Positions 39,247 through 63,879 of a DNA stretch of 64,000 bases are shown here, one piece after another. This DNA comes from Tropicibacter sp. Alg240-R139 (GTDB lineage: Bacteria > Pseudomonadota > Alphaproteobacteria > Rhodobacterales > Rhodobacteraceae): contig NZ_UNRA01000001.1 of assembly GCF_900537075.1 (NCBI RefSeq), positions 372,001 through 436,000 of the forward strand, written 5' to 3'. Positions within the stretch are counted from its first letter, which is position 1. Each line of letters starts with the position of its first letter. The notes below the pieces were generated by a model that had not been told where the DNA came from, searched no databases, and was given only the letters and a program-made list of their open reading frames with translations. The position numbers and the translations under genes are program-made.

Positions 39247-39983
39247 GCGCAAAGAACGTTCTCGTAACAGGGGCATCGTCAGGATTGGGCGACCAGTTCT
39301 GCCGCACACTGGCGGCAAATGGCTATACCGTCATTGCAGCCGCCCGCCGCAAGGACCGACTGGAGAGCTTGTGCAATGACATCTCAGAAGCCGGCGGCGT
39401 GGCGCATCCTCTCGCGATGGATGTCTCGGATGTGGAAAACTTTGCCATCGCATTGGACGAAGCCGAAGCGATGGCCGGACCGATCACCTGCCTGATCAAC
39501 AACGCCGGCACCTCGGTCAGCAAATTCGCCACCGACATGACGCCCGAGGATTTCGATGCCGTTATGGGGCTCAATCTTCGGGGCCCCTACTTCTTGTCTA
39601 CCGAGCTGGCCCGACGCTGGATCGCGCGCAACACAGGCGGCCGGATCGTCAACATCGGCTCGCTTTCCGACAGTCGCGCGATGCCGGGCCACACGGTCTA
39701 TGGCACGTCAAAGGCGGCGATTGCACGACTGACCCAGCAGATGGCGCGGGAATGGATCAACAAGGGCATCAACGTCAATGCGCTGGCGCCGGGATATATC
39801 CGCACCGAACTGAACGCGCCCTATTTCGACAGCCCAAATGGGCAAGCCGTCATCGCGCAATTCCCGCGCCGACGGGTGGGGGAACCAGCGGATCTGGACA
39901 AGGCCATCCTGTATCTGTGTGACCCCGACCAGCGTTTCCTGACTGGTCAGGTTCTGCATCTGGACGATGGACAAGGATTATAA
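39243..39983 (+). CDS. Short-chain dehydrogenase/reductase
   Basis: A 246-residue classical [11 protein letters not shown] (cofactor loop), NNAG, a catalytic Ser in NIGSLSDS and YGTSK (Tyr-x-x-x-Lys) are present. It starts in the ATGA overlap with the ACAD gene. Its likely role in this operon is oxidation or reduction at a hydroxyl or keto group of the acyl-CoA, as LvaD-type SDRs do; the substrate is inferred from context. Confidence 0.88.
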
Positions 39984-39987
39984 ACCG

Positions 39988-41742
39988 ATGAAATTCACGC
40001 TCGCCGCAACCTTTGCAATCGCCGCTGCCATCCCTGCGATGGCGCAAGAGGCCGCCCGTCCAAACATCCTGCTGGTATTGTTGGACGACGCTGGTTTCAT
40101 GGATTTCGGTGCCTATGGCGGCGATGCCGCCACCCCCAATATCGACGCGTTGGCCGATCGGGGCGCGATGTTTTCTAGGTTTTATATGTCGCCGCAATGC
40201 GGCCCGAGCCGGGCGATGCTGATGACCGGGCGCGACAATCACGAGGTCGGGTTAGGCTCGATCCCTGAAACCCTTTCCCCTGATATGCGCCAATACCCCG
40301 GCTATTCAATGCGTTGGGAAGACGGGTTGCCAACCATCGCCTCGCGCCTGAATGAAGAAGGATACCAGACCTTTATCTCGGGCAAGTGGGGCATCGGCGA
40401 TATCGGGCAGAACCTGCCGCACCGTTTCGGCTTTGACCGCTCTTTCGTGATCGACGCCACCGGGGGCAGCAATTACGACCACACGCCTTATGTGCCACTT
40501 TATAATACCACAAATTGGTATGAGGATGGCAAACCGACTACCCTGCCTGAGGGGTTCTATTCGTCTGAGGGCATCGTCGACCGGATGATCAATTATCTCG
40601 ACGAGGCCGACCCGCAAAAACCGTTCTTCAGCTTCCTGTCCTTCCAAGCAATCCACATACCGATCCAGGTCGCGCCGGAGTACCGCGACCGCTATGCAGG
40701 ACGTTTTGATGAAGGCTGGGAGGCGATGCGCAAGCAGCGGCTGGAACGCGCTGTCGACTTGGGACTGGTGCCCGAGAGCACGGAATTGGCCCCCCTGCCC
40801 GCTTCGTCGCGCGACTGGAAGAATCTGAGCCCCGCGGACCAGAGCTATTGGGCGCGGTCTATGCAGGTCAATGCTGGGATGCTGGAGGCCGCGGATCACC
40901 ATTTGGGCCGCCTGCTGGCGCATCTCGAGGCGCAAGGTCAGCTCGACAACACTCTTGTTATTGTGACCTCGGACAACGGACCGGAATCCAGTGGGATCGG
41001 CAATGCACCCGGCGCCGAAGGCGTGTTTCAGCGCTGGTGGATGCGGCAAACCGGGTGGAACCAGGACTTCGAAACACTGGGGGAGCGCAACACCATGACC
41101 TTTATCGGCGAGGAATGGGCCTCGGTTTCGGCCGCGCCTTTTGCGCTGTTCAAATTCACCGCGACCGAGGGCGGGTTGCGCGTGCCGCTTGTCATTGCGG
41201 GTCCGGACCTGCCTCAAACCGGCATTCTGGACGGCCGCGCCCATGTCACCGACCTGGTGCCAACCATGCTGGATATTGCCGGGCTGGACCCGGTAGCGCC
41301 CGACATTCGCGGCCGCAGCCTCTTGCCCATGCTCAGTGGTGCGCGCGCCGCGGTCTACGGCGACGACGAGGCGGTTGGGTTCGAGGTCAGTGGCAACGCG
41401 GCACTCTATCGTGGCAACTGGAAAATCTCGCGGATTCCGACACCGCTGGGTGATGGCAAATGGCATATGTATGACCTCGCGACCGATCCGGGCGAGACCA
41501 CGGACCTTGCAAGCGCCCGTCCCGAGCTGTTTCAGGACATGCAGAACGAATATCTCAGCTATGCCGACGAGGTTGGCGTGGTGCCTGTGCCTGCGGACTA
41601 CAACCCGTTCAAGCAGATCAAGAAAAACGTGGTCAGCAAAATGGCGCGCGAACACTGGCCTGGACTGCTTGTTGCCGGGCTGGTCTTGCTTACGATCCTG
41701 TTCTTTTCCTTCCGCTGGGTCGGGCGCCGGTTGCGCCCTTGA
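39988..41742 (+). CDS. Exported, membrane-tethered arylsulfatase (FGly type)
   Basis: A 584-residue type I sulfatase. A signal peptide (1-20, AIPAMAQ) leads into PNILLVLLDDAG, the metal-binding Asp pair. CGPSRAMLMTGR carries Cys71, the residue to be converted to formylglycine, in the consensus CxPSR. GKWGIGD is the second signature. A C-terminal helix (about 556-574) and basic tail should tether it to the inner membrane. ATG 39988 is chosen because the 39967 codon lies inside the SDR gene. It removes sulfate from an ester outside the cytoplasm. Confidence 0.88.
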   Translation: MKFTLAATFAIAAAIPAMAQEAARPNILLVLLDDAGFMDFGAYGGDAATPNIDALADRGAMFSRFYMSPQCGPSRAMLMTGRDNHEVGLGSIPETLSPDMRQYPGYSMRWEDGLPTIASRLNEEGYQTFISGKWGIGDIGQNLPHRFGFDRSFVIDATGGSNYDHTPYVPLYNTTNWYEDGKPTTLPEGFYSSEGIVDRMINYLDEADPQKPFFSFLSFQAIHIPIQVAPEYRDRYAGRFDEGWEAMRKQRLERAVDLGLVPESTELAPLPASSRDWKNLSPADQSYWARSMQVNAGMLEAADHHLGRLLAHLEAQGQLDNTLVIVTSDNGPESSGIGNAPGAEGVFQRWWMRQTGWNQDFETLGERNTMTFIGEEWASVSAAPFALFKFTATEGGLRVPLVIAGPDLPQTGILDGRAHVTDLVPTMLDIAGLDPVAPDIRGRSLLPMLSGARAAVYGDDEAVGFEVSGNAALYRGNWKISRIPTPLGDGKWHMYDLATDPGETTDLASARPELFQDMQNEYLSYADEVGVVPVPADYNPFKQIKKNVVSKMAREHWPGLLVAGLVLLTILFFSFRWVGRRLRP

Positions 41743-46872: not shown

Positions 46873-48516
46873 TTAATTCGGCCAGTAGACAAAGGCATCC
46901 CCCGCGACAAACTCGTCAGCCAGATGCTTGTCGATGGCTAGCGGGCCCGCAACGACCGACTGCGCCAGAGGTTGCGAACCCGCCCAATGCGCCTCGATCA
47001 GCGCGGTCAGTTCCGCCACCTTTTCCGGCTCTTCATCGATCAGGTTGGTTTGCTCGGTCGGGTCGTCATTCAGATTGAACAGCCAGCCTTGATCGAATCT
47101 CGGGTTGAGCTGCAATTTCCAGCCCCCCGCCTGCACCACGCGGTAGTCCGACGTCCCCCAATGGATCGCATCGTCGGGTCGTGTCAGCCGGTCCGACCCG
47201 GTCCAGAGCGGCGTCATGTCGTGCCCGTCGATATCGCGATCCACCGGCAGCGCCCCGCCCCCGGCGGACACCAGCGTCGGCATCAGGTCAAGATGCGTCA
47301 CCGGCGCGTCGATTTTTGTACCCGGAGCGATCTTGCCTGGCCATGTCACCGACATCGGGATTTTTAGCCCGCCTTCGAAAAACGTATTTTTCCAACCGCG
47401 ATAGGGCGCATTGACCCCGTCAACACCAATATAGTCCGCCGCGCCATTGTCGCTGGACAGAACCACGATCGTATTGTCGGCAATCCCTTCCGCCTCTAGC
47501 TTATCCATGATGCGACCCACCGAACGATCAAGCGAGTGCATCATCCCCGCATAGACCCGTTTGCGGTGGGGTTGGATATCGCCAACCGCTTCGTAATCCT
47601 CTTTCGTGGCTTGCAATGGCGTGTGCGCGCCCCAGTGCGCCAGATAAAGGAAAAACGGCCGACCCGCGTTGGCCTCAATGGCGCGCACGGCATGTTCAGT
47701 AAAATAGTCCGTCAGATAGCCCTTGGGCGCGAACCAGTCGCCACCACCCTGCATCACCGAATATTGCACCCGCGCCCACAAAAACTTGTCGAGGGACGAA
47801 AAGGGCAGCTTGGCATTGACCACGTTCGGGTCGTCGACCGGTAGGAAAAGCCCGCTGGCCATCATCAGATCTTCATCAAAGCCCTGGTCTTTGGGCCACA
47901 TGCCTTCCGCCCGACCCAGATGCCATTTGCCGATATGCATCGTGTGATAGCCAGTATCGCGCAAGATCTCGGCCAAAGTGATCTCGGACCCTGGCAGGCC
48001 GCGCGCGTCAAAGGTCGGGTTGGCCGCGTCGGCCGCCTTGTCATAGATGTATTCAGGCCGCCCCATGGAGTCGTAGTTGCCGATCATGGCGATCATCCGG
48101 CCCATGCCATCGGGCGTGGGCGTCACGTCATAGCCGGTGCTGGATGCATCGCGCCCTGTCAGGATCGCTGCCCGCGATGGCGCACAGTTGGCGTGCCCGG
48201 CATAGGCATTGGTGAAAATCGCGCCCTTGGCTGCAAGCCGGGCAATATTGGGCGTCGGGGTGATACCCTCGCCAAAGCCGCTAAGGTCATTGATGCCAAC
48301 ATCATCCAGCAGGATGAACACGATGTTGGGTTTGTTGACGGGCAAGGATTCGGTTTTCTCGGGCCCTTTTTCCCAAGTGACTGGACGGTTGGGCCCCGTC
48401 TCAGGGAGATCCCGGTTGGCCACAACATAAAGCAGGATATCCATCCGCTTTGCATATCCAACAACACCCGCCACAAGTATCAGCGCCACCGCGCCGAGAC
48501 TGATCTTTTTCCACAT
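46873..48516 (-). CDS. Membrane-anchored sulfatase (FGly type), second copy
   Basis: A 547-residue sulfatase with a non-cleaved N-terminal helix (about 5-21) that should anchor it facing the periplasm. NIVFILLDDVG supplies metal ligands, CAPSRAAILTGR holds Cys111 for formylglycine conversion, and GKWHLG is the second signature. The start at 48516 has GGGAGGACAAGGCCA before it. A good operator-like site (TGTCAT-ATCTA-ATGCCA) lies 35 bases upstream. The formylglycine-generating enzyme and a TetR gene are about 1 kb away. Confidence 0.9.
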   Translation of the reverse strand: MWKKISLGAVALILVAGVVGYAKRMDILLYVVANRDLPETGPNRPVTWEKGPEKTESLPVNKPNIVFILLDDVGINDLSGFGEGITPTPNIARLAAKGAIFTNAYAGHANCAPSRAAILTGRDASSTGYDVTPTPDGMGRMIAMIGNYDSMGRPEYIYDKAADAANPTFDARGLPGSEITLAEILRDTGYHTMHIGKWHLGRAEGMWPKDQGFDEDLMMASGLFLPVDDPNVVNAKLPFSSLDKFLWARVQYSVMQGGGDWFAPKGYLTDYFTEHAVRAIEANAGRPFFLYLAHWGAHTPLQATKEDYEAVGDIQPHRKRVYAGMMHSLDRSVGRIMDKLEAEGIADNTIVVLSSDNGAADYIGVDGVNAPYRGWKNTFFEGGLKIPMSVTWPGKIAPGTKIDAPVTHLDLMPTLVSAGGGALPVDRDIDGHDMTPLWTGSDRLTRPDDAIHWGTSDYRVVQAGGWKLQLNPRFDQGWLFNLNDDPTEQTNLIDEEPEKVAELTALIEAHWAGSQPLAQSVVAGPLAIDKHLADEFVAGDAFVYWPN

Positions 48517-48550
48517 TGGCCTTGTCCTCCCTGACCGGGGCAATTTATTT

Positions 48551-48703: not shown

Positions 48704-49535
48704 ATGTCTGAATCAGCGAAACCAATCGAACTTCTTGGTGCACCGGCCTCGCCGTATACACGCCAGTGATCCCGCCACCCGGTTCCTTCAGGACATTATC
48801 GAGGATTACGCCGACGAATGGCTGAGCAAGATGATGTTCCACTATCGTTGGGCGGTGCCGGAAAAAAATGCCGATCATGTCGCGCCGCTGCTGGTCTACT
48901 GGATGATGCCCCAGGCCACGGAAGGCCCCGCCAATGCCTTTGCAGCAAGTTTTGCCGCTCGCCAGATCGGGCGACTTGGCGTCGTGGGGTCGAAAGATAC
49001 GACCGCCGCGATCATCGAAGCCAGCTACCTGCGTGTCCTCAAGCTTCTGGATAGCATCGTCGCGTCCCGACCGTTCCTGTTCGGCACCCGCCCCTCGGCC
49101 GCCGATTTCGCCATTCTCGGCCAGTTCACACAATTGCTGACGATCGAGCCGACCTCTGCCGCGATCGCCCGCGAAAACGCGCCGCGCCTGCGCGCCTGGA
49201 TCGACCACCTGGAAGACGCTACCGGTTACGCCGCTGACGAAAACGGCTGGCTGTCTCGCGACGAGGTGGCCACCACCCTGCGACCGTTGTTCTGTGAGAT
49301 CGGCAAAACCTATGCGCCCTTCTTGCAGGCCAATGCCACCGCCCATGCGGCGGGTGAAAAACAGGTCACGTTAGAGATCGACGGAGCACCCTGGACACAG
49401 GCCACGTTCCCCTATCAGGCCAAATGCCTACGGGTTTTGCGCGACAGCTTCGCCGCGCTTTCGACGCAAGACCAGACCGCAGTGCGCGATGCATTCGACG
49501 GCACCGGCTGCGAAGTGTTAACGACCCCCCCCTAA
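48704..49535 (+). pseudogene. Long GST-fold gene with internal deletion
   Basis: The N-terminal fragment MSESAKPIELLGAPASPYTR starts at 48704 and meets TGA at 48767-48769. The downstream part (DPATRFLQDIIEDYADEW onward, from 48768) is one frame over. The join lacks about 55-65 residues of the thioredoxin domain seen in the paralogues, so roughly 170-200 bases were lost and the frame was broken. The helical C-domain is otherwise intact to 49535 and overlaps the end of the convergent FGE gene by 4 bases. Confidence 0.8.
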
Positions 49536-50419
49536 CCCGGATCCTTCACAATGCGAAACCCGGTATGCGCGGTTGAAAAGTCGGGCTCAAGGCTTTCACG
49601 GGCCGCAGTGCGATAACGGCGGCAATAGTTCGAACCGCACAGATAAGACCCGCCTTTGATGGTGAACTGCGGACTACCGTCGCCAAACGGCGTTTCAGTC
49701 CACTCCCAGACATTGCCGATCATGTCATGGGCGCCGATCAGGTTGGCCCGGTAGCATCCCACCGGGGCGGTGCCCGCGAACCCATCCTCGGCCGTATTCA
49801 GCACAGGGAAAACGCCGTTCCAGGTATTGGCCCGGATCTCGCCATCGGGGCCGCGAAGACCAGATTCCGGATCGTCGGGGTCAAAGAGGCCAAGGCTCGC
49901 GGCATATTCCCACTCAATCTCATTGGGCAAACGCCCCTCGGCCCAGGCTGCATAGGCACGCGCATCCGTCAGGCTGACATGCACCACCGGGTGGCGGCCC
50001 AGCCCGGCAATATCCGACCCTGCCCCGGCTGGCGTGCGCCAGGTCGCGCCTTTGTCCAGCTTCCACCAGGACAGAAGGTCCGAAGGCGTCTCGGTCTCGA
50101 TAAACCCCGCCGAACCGCCGTTTTGTTCGGCCTCGGTGACATAGCCAGTGGCGGCCACGAAAGCGGCGAACTGGTCATTCGTCACCTCGGTGACCGACAA
50201 CGAGAACGGCGAGACATGCAGCTTGATCGGTCCGCCTTCTTCGGGATAGATCGCGTCGGCACCCTTGACGAACCCGCCGCCCGGCACCTGCACGAACCCG
50301 CCAATGCTATCGTCAGCCAGAACGCAGTGCCGTGATGGATCGTCACCGTGCGGCCACCAGATGGACGCAGCCGCCAAACCAAGAGCCATCAGGCCAGACA
50401 CCGAAACCCGCCAACGCAT
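49532..50419 (-). CDS. Formylglycine-generating enzyme (SUMF1 family), probably exported
   Basis: A 295-residue FGE-sulfatase domain protein that converts the sulfatase CxPSR cysteine to formylglycine. The copper-binding active-site pair is Cys261/Cys266 in GGSYLCGSNYCRRYR; GNVWEWTE and AHTGFRI are other family marks. Residues 5-23 form a hydrophobic signal/anchor, so it appears to work outside the cytoplasm. Most bacterial FGEs are cytosolic. It starts 4 bases after the TetR stop, and the two sulfatases it would serve lie within 10 kb. Confidence 0.88.
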   Translation of the reverse strand: MRWRVSVSGLMALGLAAASIWWPHGDDPSRHCVLADDSIGGFVQVPGGGFVKGADAIYPEEGGPIKLHVSPFSLSVTEVTNDQFAAFVAATGYVTEAEQNGGSAGFIETETPSDLLSWWKLDKGATWRTPAGAGSDIAGLGRHPVVHVSLTDARAYAAWAEGRLPNEIEWEYAASLGLFDPDDPESGLRGPDGEIRANTWNGVFPVLNTAEDGFAGTAPVGCYRANLIGAHDMIGNVWEWTETPFGDGSPQFTIKGGSYLCGSNYCRRYRTAARESLEPDFSTAHTGFRIVKDPG

Positions 50420-53665: not shown

Positions 53666-54282
53666 CTTGTCCGCGTCTCGCCCATTCACGCGCTATGCGG
53701 CGAAAGTGTTGTTTGGATGAGGCCGTCGAAACCGACCGGCAACGGTCGCTTCTGCGCCTTGGGCTACGTTGCGGCGTAGAGCTCGCTGCATATGCAAAGC
53801 AATGCTGCGCGAGCAGTAGCTGCGCCTGCACAAGTCCGGAAAGTCCGCATTGTGTGAATTCGTTCTGCGTGCGGCGAAAGTCTGAAGAGCGGGACAATGC
53901 CGCCTTTTGCTGACGCGGCTAATGCTTGCGCAGAAAGCGTTCGCGGGTGCAGCGGGAATTTTTCGGAGATGCAGCGAGTTTCACGAAACCGGCCGTTCAC
54001 TCGTGTGGATTTCACAGGATTTCAAACTGCCCTTTCGCTGCGCGCTGTTTCAAGAATCCAGAGGCGGACTTTACCGACATTCGTTTTTCTGACTTTGCTG
54101 ACGCAGCATGGCCACGCGTTTGCGGTATGTCTGTCGCTGCCTTGCAGCCCACGTCGCTAATGCTGTCATTCAATCTGGCTCCATGACGTCAAATCCAAAC
54201 CGCATTTTCGCTGCAGAGTGTCATAACTATCAAGACGCGGGACTTTGCGGATTTGTTCTTTCGCTCACTTGGTTCTTTAGTT
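53666..54282. other. Long noncoding spacer
   Basis: About 620 bases with short frames only and no domain or ribosome site. The sequence is rich in words such as GTCCGGAAAGTCCGC, TGCGGCGAAAGTC and GCTGCG. It marks the change from the G+C-rich left part to a more A+T-rich right part. Confidence 0.5.
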
Positions 54283-54648
54283 TTACATCGCCACAGCACA
54301 CCGAAACCTGTCCTTACCGACGATCGAAAGTGAAAAATCCGGCGGCTCGGGAAGATAGACTTTCAAAACATCGCCTGCTTGCAATATTCTGAAGTCTCCA
54401 CTGGGAACTTCCAACTTCATCTGCCCAGCAAGGCAGAAAACTATTCTCGGGCAATCAAGCACCCGATCTCTATCTGTATATCCTGGTGGAAACTCTACGA
54501 ACGTCAGGCCCTTACAGTCGAAAGTATTGCTTATCGATGTTCGTCGTCTGTCCCAGCCGTGGTCACCGAAAGACACTTCTACCGTTTCTTCAGAGATCAC
54601 GGTCTCTTCCGAAGGGTTTACTTTCAAAGTGATCAGTATTTGTGCCAT
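54283..54648 (-). CDS. Small cupin-like protein
   Basis: A 121-residue single-domain protein. The core FPPGYTDRDRVLDCPRIVFC, LAGQMKLEVPSGDFRILQAG has the G(X)5-type turn and pitch of a cupin beta-barrel, though the usual two-His motif 1 is not evident (Asp and Cys sit there). AGAGG precedes the ATG at 54648. Possible metal binding cannot be judged. It is an orphan gene next to the DUF3124 gene on the same strand. Confidence 0.7.
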   Translation of the reverse strand: MAQILITLKVNPSEETVISEETVEVSFGDHGWDRRRTSISNTFDCKGLTFVEFPPGYTDRDRVLDCPRIVFCLAGQMKLEVPSGDFRILQAGDVLKVYLPEPPDFSLSIVGKDRFRCAVAM

Positions 54649-54892
54649 TTCGTGCCTCTGGTTATCGTCGACGCAACAGTAGTGTCGGTTTCATTTGAAG
54701 TCACTATGCAGCCTAAAGTGTTAGGGGCTTATGTTACGATATCAGAGTAGTTCAGAAGGTAGCTGGCAGTTTTGTGAAGAGTGAGACTCTGGCTGACCTC
54801 ACAAAGAGCCTCAGACGGCCTAAATTTGGTTGCCCTAAGCCAATCTTGCTTTGCGTGAAGCATCCTTCGACGCCAAACTTCCCAATTCAATA

Positions 54893-55396
54893 TTATCTTT
54901 GAGACAGCACACGTGCTTTGGAGATGAAAGAAATGCCGTGGGTGCCGTTTCCGCCGACGATAAGGGCTTCAACGATTGGTTGAAGAACCGCGTCTTCTGC
55001 TTCCCATTTCACCACGAAATTTCCACCATGGGCGTTTTGTGTCGACCCGAGTGGCACCAAAACTCTCATAGACTGAAATGACTCAAGCACTTTTTCACCG
55101 TTAAGATGGCGTTTTACCAAACCGCCATCTGTATCGAGATACTCGATTTCCAAGACAGCAATACTCAGTTCCGGGTCAACATTGTGTATATACAGGGTGG
55201 ATGCCAGCGGTTCACTCGATCCTTCATGAGTGAGAACCTCAGAATATCCGGGGACAAAAAGAGTTTGAGCATTCAACCGGGCAAAAGGTTCTGCTTCCTG
55301 GGCAAGTACCCCTGTAACTGGGAAAACCAGAGCGATTGAGCATATTGCGGCCAATAAATTGGCTTTGAGGAGATGTCGTACGGTCTGGTGTTTCAT
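54893..55396 (-). CDS. DUF3124 family periplasmic protein
   Basis: A 167-residue protein. ATG 55396 opens a good signal peptide (MKHQTVRHLLKANLLAAICS, cleaved near VLAQEA). A TTG at 55465 keeps the same frame open but lacks a ribosome site. The mature part FVPGYSEVLTHEGSSEPLAS and LYIHNVDPELSIAVLEIEYL fits DUF3124, an immunoglobulin-like family of unknown role. Its start overlaps the stop of a 17-codon leader frame. It lies just downstream of the MscS gene. Confidence 0.75.
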   Translation of the reverse strand: MKHQTVRHLLKANLLAAICSIALVFPVTGVLAQEAEPFARLNAQTLFVPGYSEVLTHEGSSEPLASTLYIHNVDPELSIAVLEIEYLDTDGGLVKRHLNGEKVLESFQSMRVLVPLGSTQNAHGGNFVVKWEAEDAVLQPIVEALIVGGNGTHGISFISKARVLSQR

Positions 55397-55446
55397 ATCG
55401 TTATGACGGTGGAAGCGAAGGGCATCAGAACACTCCGGGTTTTCAT
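55393..55446 (-). CDS. Possible 17-residue leader peptide
   Basis: ATG 55446 has a good GGAG seven bases upstream and gives MKTRSVLMPFASTVITI, ending at a TGA that overlaps the DUF3124 ATG (ATATGA). That ribosome site, with none before DUF3124, suggests translation begins here and re-starts at DUF3124. It may be a coupling leader rather than a functional peptide. Confidence 0.4.
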   Translation of the reverse strand: MKTRSVLMPFASTVITI

Positions 55447-55474
55447 TACTTGTCTCCTGACTCAATATCTATGT

Positions 55475-56899
55475 TCAGTACGAGGTTTTATCGTCTGGCG
55501 GCGACTTGTCGACAATATGAACCTGCTTTTGCGGTAGCGGTGTGGACACACCTTCGGCATCAAATGCCTTCTTTCCTTTGTCGATAAGGTCCCAGTAGAC
55601 GGACCAATAATCGGCGGTTGCCACCCAAGGTCGGCAGTTCAGGTTCACGGAAGACTCGTCGATTGCGGCCATGAAAACTGACGGTGCGGGGGTTTCCAGA
55701 ACTTTTTCATGGGTGGTGCAGAGGTCCATCAGAATAGCCTTGGCCTTATCGACGTCATCCTCATACCCAATTCGGAACACCATATCGACCCGGCGTGTTT
55801 TAGCTGCGTTCACATTGGTTATCACGTCCCCCCAAATCGTCGAGTTCGGGACAATAATGAACTTGTTATCAAAGGTCCGTATGGTTGTTGAAATGATGCT
55901 CATACCATAGACTTCGCCAGAAATTCCGGACATTTCAACGAAATCTCCAAAATCAAATGGCTTGAACACCATGATCATCAAACCGGCGGCCAGATTCCCC
56001 AAAGTTTCTTGCATTGCAAACGCAACGACAATCGACAGACCGCCGAACACTGTCAAAATGGGTCCGAGGTAAAATCCCAGCCCAGAGAGAAGAAACATCA
56101 GTCCCACGACAAATGTTCCCCAGTAAACAATCCTGGGAACAAAACTTTTCAATGCCTCAGATAACTCGCGCTGCCGATCCAAGGCCTTCTTGCTCATTCG
56201 GGCCAATACGCGGGCAGCCAACCTTATGGCCCATATCGAAAACACTACTATCCCGATTTTCTTAATGAAATCAAGGCCACCGCTTGTGGAAAACGTCCAA
56301 CGGACAGCGCTCTCAACCAGTGCCCAATTGTCCGTTACGTAAATGAGTTCGGACGTCAAAGCAGTAAGGTAATCGCGGTAGGGCTTGGTTTCCTCAACTG
56401 ACCCTCCTTTCTTTGTCCACGCCTGCAAGGCTGAGGAATAGTTCCGTTGAATGCGGCTTCTGTCGTCATCGAGCTCAACGAGATTTCTTCGCGCTATTTG
56501 CGTTTCGGCGGTGTCCAAGTTCTTGAGCGAACGTTGCAGATCGACGGTTCTCTGAACGTTTTCCTGAAGTATTATTTGCCAACCTTCTGTGACCTGTGAA
56601 ATTTGCGTGGCGGTCAACGGCGTTAACATTTTCCTCAGATCAGCATTGCTGACATCTGGATCGGTCGCAGCTTCAACGTAAGATTGATTTCGATCACCCT
56701 CCGGCGCATTAGGCTCTTCACTCGCGCTTGGTGTCGAGGAATTTTGCGTTTGCGACGCGACCGGGACCGGCATGGCGATCAACACCACGGACAGCAGCAC
56801 TGCAAAAACATGTACGGCAACAGATGCATCTTCCGTTCCCGTTGGTATGGTTCTACTTCTCACTGATGGAGGGTGTTGGAAGAAGCCGACTGTAGCCAT
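55475..56899 (-). CDS. MscS-family mechanosensitive channel
   Basis: A 474-residue membrane protein: N-terminal hydrophobic segment (about 25-48), a coiled region, then the MscS pore and beta domain. The pore helix contains GLSIVVAFAMQETLGNLAAG, and FKPFDFGDFVEMSGISGEVY with NSTIWGDVITN are the beta-domain marks. It opens under membrane tension to release solutes. It heads a minus-strand unit with the DUF3124 gene. Base composition is lower in G+C than genes left of 53 kb. Confidence 0.9.
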   Translation of the reverse strand: MATVGFFQHPPSVRSRTIPTGTEDASVAVHVFAVLLSVVLIAMPVPVASQTQNSSTPSASEEPNAPEGDRNQSYVEAATDPDVSNADLRKMLTPLTATQISQVTEGWQIILQENVQRTVDLQRSLKNLDTAETQIARRNLVELDDDRSRIQRNYSSALQAWTKKGGSVEETKPYRDYLTALTSELIYVTDNWALVESAVRWTFSTSGGLDFIKKIGIVVFSIWAIRLAARVLARMSKKALDRQRELSEALKSFVPRIVYWGTFVVGLMFLLSGLGFYLGPILTVFGGLSIVVAFAMQETLGNLAAGLMIMVFKPFDFGDFVEMSGISGEVYGMSIISTTIRTFDNKFIIVPNSTIWGDVITNVNAAKTRRVDMVFRIGYEDDVDKAKAILMDLCTTHEKVLETPAPSVFMAAIDESSVNLNCRPWVATADYWSVYWDLIDKGKKAFDAEGVSTPLPQKQVHIVDKSPPDDKTSY

Positions 56900-57266
56900 T
56901 GCGATGGTCCCTCATTTCTGCGCTGGCTGAAACCAGTACCTTTTCGGCTTTATTGCTTCAAGTGCCGGTAAACAGACATACTCTTGCGATCCGCAATTTA
57001 ACTTGTCGCAGCGGGGAACAGCCGGAGTTGCTCTTTCCTACAGCGTTCCGGTCCGGACAATTTCCAGAATTCACTTTCACTGCGGCGAAATCAGCGCAAC
57101 TTTGGTGCCACAACCGCGCTTGGGAACCCCAATTTGTGAGGCTCAAACATCTGGCTGGTTTGTTGTGTACAGGGTAAACCCTTTCAGGTTAATCCACAGG
57201 GGAAAGCAGCGAGTTCATCCCATTGGCGGAAGTGCTTTGGGTATGCTGTGTAGTGGGCTCTGTGCT
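56900..57266. other. Noncoding spacer
   Basis: About 370 bases between the MscS and antiporter genes without a credible frame. It shares the CAGCG/GCGGCGAAATC word style of the other empty spacers in this window. The MscS promoter is expected near its left end. Confidence 0.5.
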
Positions 57267-58388
57267 TTAAGTGTCAAAAATCAAAACCACGAAAGTAAAA
57301 AAGGCTGCCAAGTGTACTACCCCTTGCAGTGAATTGGTTCGGGTCCCCACAAAGGTAACAATGCTAATCGCGAGAGTAAGAGCGAGCAGTACAATTTCGG
57401 CTGGTTCCAGGCCGAGTTCAATCGGAAGGCCAAACATCGTTGATGCGACAAGTACCGCCGGGACTGTTAAGCCGATAGTCGCGACGGCTGAACCCAAGCA
57501 GATATTCACGGCGCGTTGTAACTGGTTGGCCCGTGCGGAATCCAGAGCAGCCAGCGCCTCGGGCGTGAGGATCATTGCAGCCACCAGGAACCCTCCAAGC
57601 GCGACAGGCGCACCGAGTTCTGCGATCTTAAAGTCTACGTATACAGCCAGCATCTTGGACAGCAATACGATCGGGAGCATTGCCAGTAGAAGGCCAGCCA
57701 CATGATAGCCAATACTTTTGGTTTCCAGATTATGAATGGACGAACCTGCAGTTGTCGGAATCTCATCTGCCGGCTGGCGAAATATTTCCGGTTTCCCGAG
57801 CGTTTGGTATGCCAGAAAGATGCAGTAGAGCACCAAGGACATTACGACTTGAAACCCTGCTTGTAAGGGCGACAACCCTCCGCCCTCGGCTGAAGTCGTA
57901 AAGCTGGGAAGAACGAGACTCGTCAACGCAATCGGCAGCAGAACGACTAGATAGGCGTTGGCACCCGACAAGTTGAAAACCTGAAGCCCGTGCCGGAGAC
58001 CGCCGATCAACAAGCTGAGGCCAACGAGGCCGTTCATAACGATCATCAGAACAGAGAACATCGTGTCCCGCGCCAAGGTCGGGTTGTTGTCGCCGTTTAG
58101 CATGACGGCGGTAATAAGGGCGACCTCGATCCCGATGACTGAAAGCGTCAGAATTAGCGTACCAAAGGGCTCGCCGAAAATGATCGCCAGGCATTCGGCA
58201 TGATGAACAACTCGAAAGACAGTACCGAGCATAATCGCGAAAATCACGCCGAGCATAATCCAAGAAGCGCCCGAACCGATAATATCAGGCTTTAAGGCGT
58301 CTCCGATCAAAGACATCGCAGCAAAAGTCAGCCAGATGAGCCCGGTTGGCCATTCGGCTCGAAGTGTGTTGTCGCCTCCATGAGCCAT
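57267..58388 (-). CDS. Calcium/sodium:proton antiporter, ChaA/y4hA type
   Basis: A 373-residue protein with about 11 membrane helices. The alpha-repeat GEPFGTLILTLSVIGIEVAL (about residues 72-91) and its second copy LTPEALAALDSARANQLQRA are typical of bacterial CaCA antiporters related to ChaA. It would export cations in exchange for protons. It starts 9 bases after the MFS gene and is the last gene of a four-gene minus-strand run. Confidence 0.85.
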   Translation of the reverse strand: MAHGGDNTLRAEWPTGLIWLTFAAMSLIGDALKPDIIGSGASWIMLGVIFAIMLGTVFRVVHHAECLAIIFGEPFGTLILTLSVIGIEVALITAVMLNGDNNPTLARDTMFSVLMIVMNGLVGLSLLIGGLRHGLQVFNLSGANAYLVVLLPIALTSLVLPSFTTSAEGGGLSPLQAGFQVVMSLVLYCIFLAYQTLGKPEIFRQPADEIPTTAGSSIHNLETKSIGYHVAGLLLAMLPIVLLSKMLAVYVDFKIAELGAPVALGGFLVAAMILTPEALAALDSARANQLQRAVNICLGSAVATIGLTVPAVLVASTMFGLPIELGLEPAEIVLLALTLAISIVTFVGTRTNSLQGVVHLAAFFTFVVLIFDT

Positions 58389-58397
58389 CGATTTTTC

Positions 58398-59681
58398 CTA
58401 TCTCTTTAATTCCGGTGTCAGCTCGACGCTGTTTGTTTGTGCGACTTTATGGTGAGTTTTCTCAGCACTCGCTGCAGCATCCTTTCGTATCAGCCTGAGA
58501 CCGGCAAATCCAGCGTAGCTGATCGTAATCAATACAAGAAACCAGAATAGCGAGATGTCGCCAAAAATTCCCGAAACCGCACCAGCCAAGAGAGGCCCAA
58601 CAATGGCACCCACGGTGCTCACAAAAAGCATCGTAACGGAAGCAGACGCAACAAAAACAGGTGGCGTGCGATCCATCGCGTGAGCTGCGAGCAACGAATA
58701 CAAGGTTAGCAGAGATCCCCCTAAAAGAAGAAAAGCGGCCAGTTGCAATACTTGCCAACCGGGCCCGGCTGCTAGGATGTAGGCGGTCTCATCGCCAGAT
58801 CCGAGAACCGCAACGCTCGCCAGCAGGAAAGCCGCAAGAACGCTGCTCATCATAATGACCAAGCGACGATCAATTCGGTCAGACAGGTTCCCCAATGGAT
58901 ACATGAACACGATCCGCCCAAGGTAGAGAACCCCGATTGCAAGGCCGATATCTCTTGTTTCGATGCCCAGAACTGCTGCGTGATAGGGCGCCACACTTAA
59001 GAGTGTTGTGGCGACCATACCCACCACGAACGCACCAACCCATGCTGTTGGCGAGTCCTGGAACATTGCTTTTATTCGGACATTTGCATTGGACTTCAGG
59101 GCTGGAGGATCCGTTTGGGCCGCGGAAAGAACAACGATGGCAAGGCAATACAGCATGGAAATGAGAACAAAAGCTTCGTCTAGGTCGCCCGGCAGCAATT
59201 GTATCAAGAACTGACTGGCCACTGACATCGTGCCAAGCACAATCGCGTATATCGCGAGCAACCTGCCACGACTTTCTTTGTCGGCTGACTCGCTAATCCA
59301 AGCATCTCCGATGGCGAATAATCCCGCCGTCGCAACTCCGATCGCAAAACGGACGACCAAAAGGAACGGTACAGAGTCGCTTACGGAAAAGGCCAGTGCT
59401 GAGGCCGTGCAAATCCCGGCTCCAGCCGCGAATGATCTAACATGGCCGATCGCGCTGAGCCAGCCAGCGATATAGAAACACCCGACAAGAAATCCTAGTG
59501 AATAGAACGCCGGTGCGAGCGCGGCTACCTCTTGCGACACACCGGTTTCGGCAAAATACAATGCAACAAGAGTCGCAGACGCGGCCGTTACGATCTGAAC
59601 GGAGGCCATTCCAATGAAGAGCGACCTCAGTGTCAGAAGTTTTGCGTTAAAGCTAGTTGGATCTTGTTTTTTAACTGCCAC
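58398..59681 (-). CDS. MFS transporter
   Basis: A 427-residue protein with 12 membrane helices. The inter-domain loop and the conserved LGRIVFMYPLGNLSDRIDRR (MFS motif A-like) are near residue 255-275. It is a likely uptake or efflux permease for the substrate of the neighbouring esterase and sulfatase-like proteins; direction cannot be told. It is closely followed by the antiporter gene on the same strand. Confidence 0.85.
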   Translation of the reverse strand: MAVKKQDPTSFNAKLLTLRSLFIGMASVQIVTAASATLVALYFAETGVSQEVAALAPAFYSLGFLVGCFYIAGWLSAIGHVRSFAAGAGICTASALAFSVSDSVPFLLVVRFAIGVATAGLFAIGDAWISESADKESRGRLLAIYAIVLGTMSVASQFLIQLLPGDLDEAFVLISMLYCLAIVVLSAAQTDPPALKSNANVRIKAMFQDSPTAWVGAFVVGMVATTLLSVAPYHAAVLGIETRDIGLAIGVLYLGRIVFMYPLGNLSDRIDRRLVIMMSSVLAAFLLASVAVLGSGDETAYILAAGPGWQVLQLAAFLLLGGSLLTLYSLLAAHAMDRTPPVFVASASVTMLFVSTVGAIVGPLLAGAVSGIFGDISLFWFLVLITISYAGFAGLRLIRKDAAASAEKTHHKVAQTNSVELTPELKR

Positions 59682-59803
59682 AACTTTCGGTCCAGCTCAT
59701 TATTTTTACTTGTAGTTTTTCGTACGCGGCGGCAACTGCCATACCGTCTGGGTCAAGCCCATTGGCCGAAGAAACAAATTGAGAACTCGCCAGAAGTCGA
59801 CGA

Positions 59804-61687
59804 TTAAAGGTTCATGTGCTCCGGTTCAGGCTGGCGCGTCGGGATGCGGTCAAAGGAGTTGACGATCGCTTCCATCGTGGATTGCTCACCCGTGACAACT
59901 GCATCGCCGGAAGCGATCGCGTCTGCCAGCGAGATTTCCCGAAGAGCGATGCGAGCCCAGATCCTGCGGTCCAGCTCGACCTCTACATCGACTGTTGTCG
60001 GCGCAGCCTCAGTAACTTCAACGACACCGCGTCGAACGTGCACGCCCCACGACCGCCCCACATCGGTGAACGTAAACTTGGCGATGGCTTCAACGTTTGC
60101 GCTGTTCACCGGGTCGACGTTGAATTGTAACAGCTTGAGATAGGTGCCAGGCGGCGTATTCATGACCAAATCGACACCAGGAGGGGAGAAAAAGCCAATC
60201 TCCGGCGGTTGCTTCCAATCGAGTTTACCTTCGAGGTGGAGAGCATGGGTCAGGAAAAAGTTTCGGGCCTGAATGCCGGCTTGGGCGGCTTGCCCCATGG
60301 CTCGCAGCGCGTCTGCCTTGAGTTGGAGAGCGTCTGTGTTTATTGGATCAGCCGCCAGAACAAAGCTTAGAAGCTTCGCAGTCAGGTTGTACTTTCTTTC
60401 TTCGAAGGCGGCCCGCGCCCGATCGATGATAACATCGACGCCACCGAATCCTTCGATCATCACGCTACCGAGTTCGGCATCTGTCGGAGGATGCAGATCG
60501 GCGGTGTCCTCGGCAAACCAGCCAACGATACCTCTGTAAACACCGCGAATATTGTACTCGTGCTCGACATACCCCGGGAACAACCAAGAATGATTGGCGA
60601 GGTGCTCGGGTACTTGAATGGCCTCGACCATTTGGTCCGGTGTCATTCCACGATTTATGGCTCTGACCGACTGATTGTAGATATAGGAATAGTAGTCGCG
60701 ATGCGCCGTCATGACTTCGTAGGCCTCGTCGCCAATCAGCGGCACGCCGTGGCAGCCGACCAAGACACCGGGGCGAATGGCGCGCATTTTGTCGATCGAT
60801 GCAATCATGTCGTCCGGAGCGCGGTAAAAATCGCCGCGTAGCGTATACATGGAAAATGCCATAGGAACGACGTTTGTGTTGTGCAACACGAGGTCCAAAT
60901 CCGGAAAATGCACGATCACGCTATCCCGGGTATCACCAACCGCGTGATGGAAGACGACACGTAATCCATCGATCAAGAATTCCTCGCCGTCGGCAACAGG
61001 GTACGTCACCGGAAGGTGACCATTCTCCTGAAGTTCGGGATCGTCGAATGTCGGTTCGGCCGGACCAACATAAGCATCTGGTCCGTCGTGCGGCAAATAG
61101 AAGCCAAGCTGAAGGCTTGCCCTGCGAAACTGCATCGGCCCAAGCTCACCGGCTGTTAGCTGCAGGTTTGCGTCAACGTCGGGGTGCCCATAAATGGGCA
61201 GGTCAACGCCGCTGTCTTCTACGTAGGCGCGAGCGCCCGCAGTGTAGTGATGATGCGAATAGATGATTGCAACAATCGGAAGCTGTGTCTTTGTCCGCAG
61301 GAGTGCAAGGATATCGCGACCCATGCCAATGTTATTGCCAGCATCGAAAGCAATCAGCCCTGTTTTTCCTTGTACGAAAGTGAAATTCCCGAGCATATAG
61401 CCGACGATCGACCACACCCCCTCCTGCGGCTCAAATATTGTCGCTTCGGTGGGTTGGGACACTAGCCAGTCTATGTAGTCACCATTCGCAATCCCCCCGT
61501 TCGGCATCTCCGCTTTGGTGTCGTCGAAACTGCCTCGGTAGGAGAGCGGTCTTAGTTCAGAGTCTTCAACCGATGAGTCGGTGCTCTGAGCGCGCGCTGT
61601 TCTGGCGTTCATCGTTGCGAGCGGCGCCGCCGCGAGAGAAGCTCCAAGCGCTGGCACATTTTGAAGAAAGTTTCGTCTTGTAGTCAT
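59804..61687 (-). CDS. Exported MBL alkylsulfatase-like protein with altered metal site
   Basis: A 627-residue protein with a Tat-type signal (TTRRNFLQNVPALGASLA, cleaved near ARAQS). An MBL domain (about 85-330), an alkylsulfatase dimerisation domain (about 390-500) and a C-terminal SCP2-like domain match the SdsA1/BDS1 family. The usual HxHxDH zinc motif appears as HHHYTA (145-150): the Asp and last His are Thr149 and Ala150. The downstream Glu ligands also appear replaced (GDTRDS and HNTNVVP where TEAPAE and AENVTH are usual). So hydrolysis by the standard two-zinc mechanism is doubtful, and another reaction is possible. Confidence 0.8.
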   Translation of the reverse strand: MTTRRNFLQNVPALGASLAAAPLATMNARTARAQSTDSSVEDSELRPLSYRGSFDDTKAEMPNGGIANGDYIDWLVSQPTEATIFEPQEGVWSIVGYMLGNFTFVQGKTGLIAFDAGNNIGMGRDILALLRTKTQLPIVAIIYSHHHYTAGARAYVEDSGVDLPIYGHPDVDANLQLTAGELGPMQFRRASLQLGFYLPHDGPDAYVGPAEPTFDDPELQENGHLPVTYPVADGEEFLIDGLRVVFHHAVGDTRDSVIVHFPDLDLVLHNTNVVPMAFSMYTLRGDFYRAPDDMIASIDKMRAIRPGVLVGCHGVPLIGDEAYEVMTAHRDYYSYIYNQSVRAINRGMTPDQMVEAIQVPEHLANHSWLFPGYVEHEYNIRGVYRGIVGWFAEDTADLHPPTDAELGSVMIEGFGGVDVIIDRARAAFEERKYNLTAKLLSFVLAADPINTDALQLKADALRAMGQAAQAGIQARNFFLTHALHLEGKLDWKQPPEIGFFSPPGVDLVMNTPPGTYLKLLQFNVDPVNSANVEAIAKFTFTDVGRSWGVHVRRGVVEVTEAAPTTVDVEVELDRRIWARIALREISLADAIASGDAVVTGEQSTMEAIVNSFDRIPTRQPEPEHMNL

Positions 61688-61787
61688 AGTTCTTTACCCC
61701 GGATTTGCGATTGTGGCAGTGTGCTGCAGATATGATGTCGTTCGTTTCACCGCGGAGTTCGCGTGGGCAGAATTTCCCTGATTACTG

Positions 61788-63383
61788 CTACGGCACTTCG
61801 CAACGGAAACTTTCTGGGCTGTTGGGATCACCGCTTCCATCGTAGGTCACGACTGACGGGTGTGCGCAGATGATGCGCCCACCTCGACCGTCCGGCTGTC
61901 GCGTCCTCGGGTCCACGAAGGGAGCATCCAGTTGATCGGGAGCAACGCCTGTGTCCAACCACTCTTCCAAAGCTGCAATGTAGTTTGTGCCATCCGGTCC
62001 TGGTCCACCACTACAATGGGTAACACCTGGGCGAACGAACAAGCGCACGTCATCACGGGCTGTCGGATCTAGAGCCAGAACACTTTCATAGTAGTTTATT
62101 GTTCCGTAGGCGGTCAGTGATCCGTCCATCCAACCATTGTCGAGGATGAGCTTTCCACCATTGGCCCTGAATTTGGAAAGGTCAGGATTGTCGGCATCCA
62201 CCGAAGAACTGAGACGTTCGGCGTGATGAGCGTAGTCTGAGAAATCATAACCCTCATAAGTCCAATCAGGATCGTTGTAGAAGAAGTACTTCATCATCTG
62301 CGTCGCAAATCCCCAAGTGGCATTCGGGATCGGGGGTTCTTCAAACGCGCTTTGTTCAGAGCCAGGGTGAAAGTCCATCTCTGCGCCTTCGACATAGCCT
62401 CCGGAGATCCAAATCAACCAACCAAGCGGATTGCCGGGCAATTCCACACCCATCGGCGTTCCCGGCCACGAGATGCCACCGAACTCGGCTTCGCTGTGAA
62501 TGGCTTTCGCTGCTGCAACCTGTTCCGGGCTGAGGCATTGATTGGTTTCGCCTTCGCCGCAGGTCAGCGACGCGACATCAAAGTCACACTGCCTCGGGTC
62601 ATTCAGAATTCCATCCTTGAGTCCGTCCAGAGCGTCACAATGTTCCATGATCCCGCCACCCAGAATGGCAAGCGCGTCGGCATCAATCACGGGCGTCGTG
62701 ATCTGGTTTGGATCTGGATACATGATTTGAGCATCGTGGGTCCAACGACCAGCCATTTCCTTTGTCCAGGAGTAAGCGGGGGCTCCAGCATAGATCCCGT
62801 CGAACACATCGGGGGATCGCTGTGCTACCATCATTGCCTGGCCACCACCACGGGAACAACCAAGGAAAATGTTTCGCTGGCTTTCAGTCCCATAGAAGTC
62901 GGCAATAATCGCCTTTGATGTGACGGCGGTCCTGTGAACGGCCTGAAACCCAAAAGAGACCTGACGCTCTAGGTTGTTCAACGCCCAAGATGCGACAATG
63001 TTGCTGCCCTTGTGCCCGGTATCGGTCGAGACCGTCGCCCACCCATCCGTAACGACGTTAAAGGCGTCGTTTGCCATGTTGTCGAAGTTGCCAGCGAATC
63101 CGCCGCTGCCACCCATGATGAACTTTCCGTTCCACTCATCCGGCAGCAGCAGTTCAAATTCGGTTTCTGTTCCTATTCTGCCGATGACGCGGCAGTAAGC
63201 AGCAGGTTCAGATACAGCTTCGGCCGAAATAACGCTCATATCGGGAAAGCTGGGAATGCCCGCAACATTGCATTCACCCGTGCTTGCGACTGACGCAGTC
63301 GCTGAGGCAGCAAGCGCGGTAGTTACGGCCATTAGTCTCATTTTGTGCGCACCAAAACCGGCAGCAATGGACTGTACCTTCAT
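61788..63383 (-). CDS. Tannase/feruloyl esterase family protein
   Basis: A 531-residue exported hydrolase. Signal sequence LMAVTTALAASATASVASTG near the N-terminus; ATG 63383 or a later Met15 may be the start. GCSRGG (175-180) holds the nucleophile Ser177 and a Cys that forms the characteristic disulfide with the Cys in VTHCSGGPG beside the catalytic His. The Asp lies in DNGWMDGSLTAYGT. It would release a phenolic or other aryl acid from an ester in the periplasm. It is the first gene of the run with the MBL protein, MFS and antiporter genes. Confidence 0.85.
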   Translation of the reverse strand: MKVQSIAAGFGAHKMRLMAVTTALAASATASVASTGECNVAGIPSFPDMSVISAEAVSEPAAYCRVIGRIGTETEFELLLPDEWNGKFIMGGSGGFAGNFDNMANDAFNVVTDGWATVSTDTGHKGSNIVASWALNNLERQVSFGFQAVHRTAVTSKAIIADFYGTESQRNIFLGCSRGGGQAMMVAQRSPDVFDGIYAGAPAYSWTKEMAGRWTHDAQIMYPDPNQITTPVIDADALAILGGGIMEHCDALDGLKDGILNDPRQCDFDVASLTCGEGETNQCLSPEQVAAAKAIHSEAEFGGISWPGTPMGVELPGNPLGWLIWISGGYVEGAEMDFHPGSEQSAFEEPPIPNATWGFATQMMKYFFYNDPDWTYEGYDFSDYAHHAERLSSSVDADNPDLSKFRANGGKLILDNGWMDGSLTAYGTINYYESVLALDPTARDDVRLFVRPGVTHCSGGPGPDGTNYIAALEEWLDTGVAPDQLDAPFVDPRTRQPDGRGGRIICAHPSVVTYDGSGDPNSPESFRCEVP

Positions 63384-63879
63384 TTTGAGCTCTTCCTCAT
63401 GATCTCAGACTTGTCTGATGCCAGTGTAATGATTGAAGACTGTAAATGTCGAGTAGCCACACCTTTGGCTTAGAGTTTGCCAGATGCTGTCTCTTTTTGT
63501 TTGCTAACAACGGTAGGTCTTTGGCTCACAAGTGTTTTTTTGTCGCGGTGCGAGCCGATTGTGATTTCGGCAACCTTGCCAGATGGACAAGCTTCAATGG
63601 CAATAGCCGAAGTTCAAAGCAACCACCAATACTGCGCCGCTGCTAACGGCGAGATTGTCCCGCATAGCAGAAATTGACGTCCCAAATCTTGCTGCGCTGT
63701 GGATGAACGGCCGCTTTCCTCTTTGCGGCGCTGTTTACAGTTTTAGTGTTCGTATTGCTGCATAAGCGAGCGTCAGCGGAGGAGCACTTCGGCTTTGGGC
63801 TCAATCCGAACCACCGCTGCGGCGCGATCGTAGGTCCGGTGTGAATTGGCGAACGGCAAACGCCGTCCGCCAACTCCAT
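63384..63879. other. Noncoding spacer
   Basis: About 500 bases with no credible gene. It contains GCTCAATCCGAACC and repeated GCTGCG/GCGGCGC words, as in the other empty spacers. It must carry the tannase-gene promoter. Confidence 0.5.

Follow-up and report, generated by a model that had tools for sequence, protein, structure and literature searches.

Alkylsulfatase-like proteins with a shortened HxHxDH motif form a clade that may have been repurposed as one-metal hydrolases

Introduction

The described proteins closest to the one analysed here are the alkylsulfatases SdsA1, SdsAP and Pisa1. The SulfAtlas paper words its definition of family S3 as an HxHxDH pattern, an updated consensus around the bridging Glu and RG, and an identity of 30% or more to SdsA1 across some 600 residues (PMC5066984). 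The report on SdsAP places a first zinc ion between Asp196, His197, His367 and Glu322 and a second between His192, His194, Glu303 and Glu322, and its authors describe the zinc of the His192/His194 site as the more easily lost (PMC5426288). For Pisa1, water activation was reported to require two zinc ions (PMC3920027). We set aside the claim in PMC5426288 of an Asp at the first Glu position of Pisa1, as the Pisa1 sequences in the PDB align with Glu.

We analysed a 64,000-nucleotide stretch of DNA from a marine bacterium (the window) carrying a gene whose product was originally predicted to be alkylsulfatase-like and to lack the expected zinc ligands. Its motif loop is two residues shorter than HxHxDH, and we call proteins of this type HxHY and their HxHxDH-type relatives canonical. 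L and G numbers denote loci and genomes.

Results

Domain architecture

The protein has 627 residues and the N-terminus MTTRRNFLQNVPALG (ORF translation). Its main features are as follows.

59804..61687, minus strand: HxHY-type alkylsulfatase-like protein, 627 aa (ORF; PF14863 and PF14864; PDB matches)
61586..61687, minus strand: predicted Tat-type signal peptide (RRNFLQ...) spanning residues 1-34, identified in the translation by eye and not by a signal-peptide program
60230..60643, minus strand: Alkyl_sulf_dimr domain, residues 349-486 (PF14863, E 1.3e-29)
59843..60172, minus strand: Alkyl_sulf_C (SCP2-like) domain, residues 506-615 (PF14864, E 1.8e-11)

The SdsA1-like overall architecture that had been proposed was borne out by both Pfam domains, which pass their cut-offs (PF14863, 103.9 bits against 26; PF14864, 44.8 bits against 27), and by a phmmer search of the PDB, which matched six distinct sequences, all alkylsulfatases or YjcS-type proteins (7tl5, 4nur, 4av7, 2yhe, 2cfu and 4pdx; E 1.1e-43 to 3.1e-32). 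The match to 2cfu covers residues 84-596 (E 5.9e-34), and a profile of HxHY proteins aligned strongly to the alkylsulfatase structures over most of its length. Lactamase_B gave no Pfam match in the window protein at E≤1e-3; it was matched in the relatives L040, L036, L151 and L120:9470-11212. The dimerisation domain is present in the window protein, and all three relatives scanned for it (L040, L036 and L151) have it too. AF2 models built from the single sequence (mean pLDDT 35.5) and from six rows (the window protein and L003-L007; mean pLDDT 47.2) were too poor for site geometry. Foldseek with the latter model nevertheless ranked alkylsulfatase structures first (E 3.2e-19, TM 0.37-0.43; 20-21% identity to the SdsA1 entries in alignments from this poor model), which supports the overall fold family only. 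HxHY proteins are probably metallo-beta-lactamase-fold proteins of alkylsulfatase architecture, and the window protein is probably exported by the Tat route.

Metal-ligand columns

The positions discussed below are listed here, with counts among the 29 HxHY and 67 canonical rows of the alignment.

61235..61255, minus strand: HHHYTAG, residues 145-151, shortened metal motif (alignments; codons visible in the DNA)
61184..61186, minus strand: H168, role not assigned (29/29 HxHY, 23/67 canonical)
60932..60934, minus strand: D252, column of the first Glu ligand, SdsAP Glu303 (Asp in 29/29 HxHY; 63 Glu and 4 Asp in canonical)
60923..60925, minus strand: D255 (Asp in 29/29 HxHY, 40/67 canonical)
60875..60877, minus strand: T271, column of the bridging Glu, SdsAP Glu322, lost (acidic in 1/29 HxHY, 67/67 canonical)
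60749..60751, minus strand: H313, column of the last His ligand, SdsAP His367, kept (28/29 HxHY, 67/67 canonical)

The original prediction had read HHHYTA in place of HxHxDH. The letters, at residues 145-150, are right, but the event was a two-residue deletion and not a plain substitution. In both the phmmer and the HxHY-profile alignments the loop is two residues shorter, H145 and H147 are kept, the Asp falls in the gap, and Tyr148 takes the column of the second-site His. The HxHY profile aligned in the same way to Pisa1, YjcS-type proteins and SdsAP (H-x-H, a two-residue gap, then Tyr), and this gap rules out plain substitution of the motif.

Mapped from SdsAP, His192 and His194 correspond to H145 and H147, Asp196 is deleted and His197 corresponds to Y148; Glu303, Glu322 and His367 correspond to D252, T271 and H313. 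Three of the seven ligand columns are therefore identical (H145, H147 and H313), one has changed conservatively from Glu to Asp (D252), and three are lost (Asp, His and the bridging Glu). The claim that expected zinc ligands are missing stands for these three, but HxH, an acid at D252 and H313 are kept clade-wide. Similarly, both later Glu motifs had been called changed, which is correct for the bridging Glu; the first Glu is a conservative Asp that also occurs in 4/67 canonical rows. The retained last ligand His, H313, was absent from the prediction. Judged by these columns, one metal site is destroyed, with only H313 of its four ligands left, and the other is kept in conservative form (Asp for Glu). 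Another natural change of the second-site His was seen in an HxHxDH-type relative, L077, in which HHHPDQ places Gln at that position.

Conservation across the two motif classes

Rows were collected by overall similarity and then typed by motif, as H.HY..G (29 rows) or H.H.D[HQ] (67 rows); all 96 fit one of the two classes. H145, H147, Y148 and G151 are 29/29 by definition of the HxHY class, and the HxH counts are partly circular, yet no row gathered by similarity lacked HxH (96/96, and 87/87 in a smaller set). The pattern is more than chance, since all 96 rows fall into two classes and the class-independent columns follow the class. Over residues 80-490 any two of the 29 HxHY proteins share between 25% and 98% identity (median 32.5%), and at least 28 of the 29 rows agree at 33 positions in this range. 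H145, H147, H168 and H313 are the His residues among them. The sole HxHY exception at H313 is L078, which has Gly in that column. L078 / L150 (G871), with the motif DHNHYALG and no last His ligand, is the longest branch of the clade.

Phylogeny and distribution

In quick trees made without bootstrap and with the motif columns removed, one branch separated the 22 HxHY rows from all others in a set of 87 (SH-aLRT 96) and the 29 HxHY rows from all others in a larger set of 96 (SH-aLRT 93), which had seven more HxHY rows and ten short HxHxDH forms as outgroup and root. Several branches are long (L029, L078) and drew warnings of long-branch meeting, and the outgroup is not itself one branch side, owing to one row. 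By these trees the HxHY proteins share a common ancestry as a single clade. The clade is nested among HxHxDH rows in the rooted 96-row tree, so the two-residue deletion is most likely derived. The HxHxDH rows L055/L060, which have Asp at column 252, adjoin the HxHY rows there (SH-aLRT 85, long branch); their placement is unresolved in the 87-row tree.

Before counting we dropped L017 and L024 (interrupted frames), L030-L033 (fragments or weak), the duplicates L001, L064, L065, L066, L080, L094 and L110, and the near-duplicates L006 and L007. Rows below 500 aa were left out of the 87-row tree except L051 (347 aa, cut by the contig end). In the 96-row set, thirteen canonical rows were thinned, the canonical Vibrio-family loci L130 and L132-L142 were left out, and two short HxHY rows, L148 and L149, were included. 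These two are 468-470 aa long and come from the Vibrio family, one of them from a genome (G636) that also has a full-length HxHY gene.

The 29 distinct HxHY proteins come from seven family codes of Pseudomonadota. A contig scan returned five close relatives, from Ruegeria sp. Alg231-54 (94%) and from Shimia and other Rhodobacteraceae (79-80%), all with HHHYTAGA. The genome samples overlap and many matches are untyped, and the HxHY counts given here are lower bounds: at least 5/385 genomes of the class sample (G000, G425, G551, G553 and G298; 25 matched at E≤1e-45) and at least 5/398 of the phylum sample (G000, G553, G636, G873 and G871; 55 matched at E≤1e-75, most matches beyond the best thirty being untyped). 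By family, the counts were at least 1/2 genomes for that of G425, at least 11/149 for that of G553 (15 matched) and at least 8/150 for that of G636, which includes the Vibrio fortis contig (25 matched, four places untyped). Among the loci typed, G873 was the only HxHY genome in its family (150 genomes) and in its class (321 genomes), with two genomes matched in each. The window's own family had 27/198 genomes matched, with G000 the sole HxHY genome among the loci typed, and its genus had 1/4 matched at E≤1e-60. Two genomes of the phylum sample carry more than one HxHY gene, namely G636 with two and G873 with two in tandem. The tandem genes (L120:7722-9473 and L120:9470-11212) overlap slightly at their ends and lie near GMC oxidoreductase genes.

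Protein searches of the plasmid collection matched 164, 170 and 167 records; of the four records typed, that of Vibrio fortis was HxHY and those of Nitratireductor, Caballeronia and Novosphingobium were HxHxDH. Scans of the viral collection gave no confirmed relatives. An HxHY alkylsulfatase-like clade was not found among the matches listed from the open-licence literature (titles and abstract openings), which is weak evidence of absence.

Gene neighbourhood and island

The genes beside the HxHY gene, and the segment that holds them, are as follows.

57267..58388, minus strand: ChaA-type cation/proton antiporter, 373 aa (PF01699; PRK10599 2.5e-67, below its cut-off; 6/6 close loci)
58398..59681, minus strand: MFS transporter, 427 aa (PF07690; 6/6 close loci)
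61788..63383, minus strand: tannase-family esterase, 531 aa, serine motif GCSRGG at 175 (PF07519, E 1.8e-87)
54064..63802, unstranded: probable island segment (98.2% identical to Ruegeria sp. Alg231-54, L003; G+C below that of the left flank)

The predicted pairing with a tannase-family esterase and an MFS transporter was confirmed and is repeated in close relatives, with the ChaA-type antiporter as a further partner. The MFS and ChaA-type genes lie near the HxHY gene in all six close loci (the window and L003-L007), accompanied in four loci by a gene for a tannase-family esterase and in two by genes for an Abhydrolase_3 and for a HlyD-like protein; these loci are three pairs of near-identical sequences and so amount to three independent arrangements. 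PF07519 has one match in the window's genome. In Vibrio fortis the HxHY gene and an Abhydrolase_3 gene are arranged head-to-head, and the product of the latter shares 58% identity with its Shimia counterpart. At a locus of G1299, a genome with the genus code of Vibrio fortis, an intact HxHY gene is followed by two separate tannase pieces (L151:9109-10067), with an integrase adjoining, and the tannase there is therefore broken. The esterase link is thus supported by few independent loci. The neighbours are mixed at loci of families f63 and f216. Elsewhere the neighbours include DUF3604 and HupE/UreJ genes at L123 (with homologues in L114), GMC oxidoreductases and a TctC receptor at L120, an MPAB/Lcp-type protein, PhyH and alcohol dehydrogenase at L121, a DLH protein at L116 and a PETase-like protein at L119.

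The absence of sulfur genes, as originally predicted, holds for the immediate cassette but not for the window as a whole, which carries two PF00884 sulfatases (39967-41742 and 46873-48543) and an FGE-type (sulfatase-modifying) gene (49532-50419). All three lie outside the island segment, 9-20 kb from the HxHY gene.

The G+C content drops from 0.56-0.63 to 0.48-0.56 at about 54000, with the HxHY gene in the 0.54-0.56 part, and a tyrosine integrase lies further right on the same contig (L125:11442-12521). The HxHY gene is on a probable integrase-bearing genomic island, which spans roughly window position 54000 to L125:12521 (G000 C1 about 426000-448020). The Vibrio fortis copy is plasmid-borne. 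Beyond the segment shared with the window, L003 has an IS240-type transposase and a terminase gene; phage Terminase_6C genes were observed a few kb from the HxHY gene in two genomes (L003:2554-3768 and L121:2220-3686).

Within the 9.74 kb shared with L003, 113 of 178 differences fall inside the HxHY gene (L003:6001-7884), with sharp edges. The gene differs by 6.0%, compared with 0.09% for the ChaA-type gene, 0.31% for MFS, 0.70% for MscS, 0.81% for the tannase gene and 2.27% for DUF3124. Its dS (0.188) is well above its dN (0.027), and the pattern suggests that the HxHY gene alone was replaced by recombination.

Discussion

The HxHY gene probably encodes a working protein with a changed job. 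Our preferred reading, which we hold tentatively and at somewhat under an even chance, is a mononuclear metallohydrolase that falls outside the published definition of an alkylsulfatase and was repurposed through the motif deletion. A two-metal HxHxDH ancestor would have been deprived of one metal site when two loop residues of the motif, and the bridging carboxylate, were lost. H145, H147 and D252, with H313 nearby, would then most likely hold a single metal ion that activates water to cleave an ester-type bond of a hydrophobic substrate; given the residues kept, with H313 in reach, one-metal water activation is the simplest reading. Since H313 is a ligand of the lost site in SdsAP, retention of the other site does not by itself explain why this residue is kept, and L078 lacks it. 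It also counts against the one-metal reading that the kept site is the one whose zinc is described as the more easily lost in SdsAP (PMC5426288). The SCP2-like domain may assist with the hydrophobic substrate, and Y148, in place of the lost His, may orient or protonate it. The esterase neighbours suggest an ester-rich hydrophobic substrate, and the HxHY protein probably acts on the same class of compound as the adjoining esterase, with the MFS protein perhaps moving product or substrate. More cautiously still, HxHY proteins could be a broad mononuclear two-His-one-Asp family, derived by the two-residue deletion from binuclear alkylsulfatase-like ancestors and travelling with esterases in a catabolic cassette on mobile islands. 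In such a family the new chemistry could be ester or lactone hydrolysis, or even ETHE1-like iron-dependent oxygenation.

The original prediction left open a repurposed enzyme or a binding protein. A non-catalytic, binding or chaperone-like protein, whose fold and dimer would serve to take up a hydrophobic ligand and whose former metal residues would be structural or contact that ligand, is unlikely without being far-fetched: all 29 rows have lost one metal site, the window protein and the relatives L040, L036 and L151 retain the dimerisation domain, and the partner esterases could supply the chemistry. Against this, there is no obvious reason why such a protein would keep D252 (29/29), H313 (28/29) and HxH among only 33 positions so conserved. 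We favour the repurposed enzyme.

We consider it quite unlikely that HxHY proteins are still two-metal enzymes, with Y148, H168, D255 and H313 forming a rebuilt second site. Each is a potential ligand in at least 28/29 rows, Y148 by definition of the class, but the bridging column is non-acidic in 28/29. Moreover, canonical two-metal rows often have H168 and D255 as well (23/67 and 40/67), and neither residue therefore had to evolve as a replacement ligand.

HxHY proteins might also be ordinary alkylsulfatases that remain active on alkyl sulfates with one metal missing; in favour are the shared domains and nearest solved structures, and R284 and R289, which are conserved in 29/29 HxHY rows. 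This explanation is nonetheless improbable. HxHxDH, replaced by HHHYTAG in the window protein, occurs in none of the 22 HxHY rows (by definition) compared with 64/65 canonical rows, and a regex for the S3 signature matched 0/22 HxHY rows, the window protein included, compared with 45/65. With both pattern and signature unmatched, the HxHY protein is not to be filed as an S3 alkylsulfatase. The two zinc ions that Pisa1 was reported to need (PMC3920027) also argue against it, as does a separate HxHxDH paralog in the same genome (L002), which is 26% identical to the window protein and has motifs that look SdsA1-like by eye.

A decaying gene, drifting after loss of function, is hardly credible, even though the motif looks damaged and the 6.0% divergence between the two strains exceeds the 0.09-2.27% of the neighbours; the reading frame is intact, class-independent ligand columns are kept over 29 proteins down to 25% identity, and dN/dS (NG86) was 0.15 for the window and L003, 0.12 for L004 and L005, 0.18 for L004 and L007 and 0.04 for L005 and L006, four close pairs that indicate purifying selection on HxHY genes (three further pairs gave no usable dS). 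We set sequencing error aside, as 29 distinct proteins carry the same pattern.

The Vibrio fortis relative is annotated as 'alkyl sulfatase dimerization domain-containing protein', yet the HxHY clade does not fit the definition published for the alkylsulfatase family. If the one-metal reading is true, HxHY proteins would be a natural conversion of a two-metal into a one-metal enzyme by loss of two residues, with L055/L060, which have Asp at the first Glu column, as a possible intermediate. The evolution of metal number in the metallo-beta-lactamase fold would then become testable, and the recurring esterase neighbour would offer a handle on the substrate.

Comparison with known systems

HxHY proteins have in common with SdsA1, SdsAP and Pisa1 (SulfAtlas S3, type III) the three-domain architecture, the HxH of the kept site, the last ligand His and R284/R289; they differ in the shortened HxHxDH, the Asp for the first Glu, and the absence of the bridging Glu and of the S3 signature. 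The nearest HxHxDH rows are uncharacterised dimerisation-domain proteins (L039, L037, L045 and L055/L060), of which L039 is the best at 34%. L055/L060 resemble HxHY proteins in already having Asp at column 252, but all of these rows keep the Asp, the His and the bridging acid and hence the full two-metal set. We know of no dimerisation or SCP2-like domain in human ETHE1. This persulfide dioxygenase is described as a mono-iron enzyme of the metallo-beta-lactamase fold that binds its one metal through two His and one Asp (PMC4383860), a precedent for what we propose for HxHY proteins. By the same account, its His and Asp ligands come from motif positions other than those of HxHY, and it has in its active site an Asp83 and a His195 that are not among the three coordinating residues (PMC4383860).
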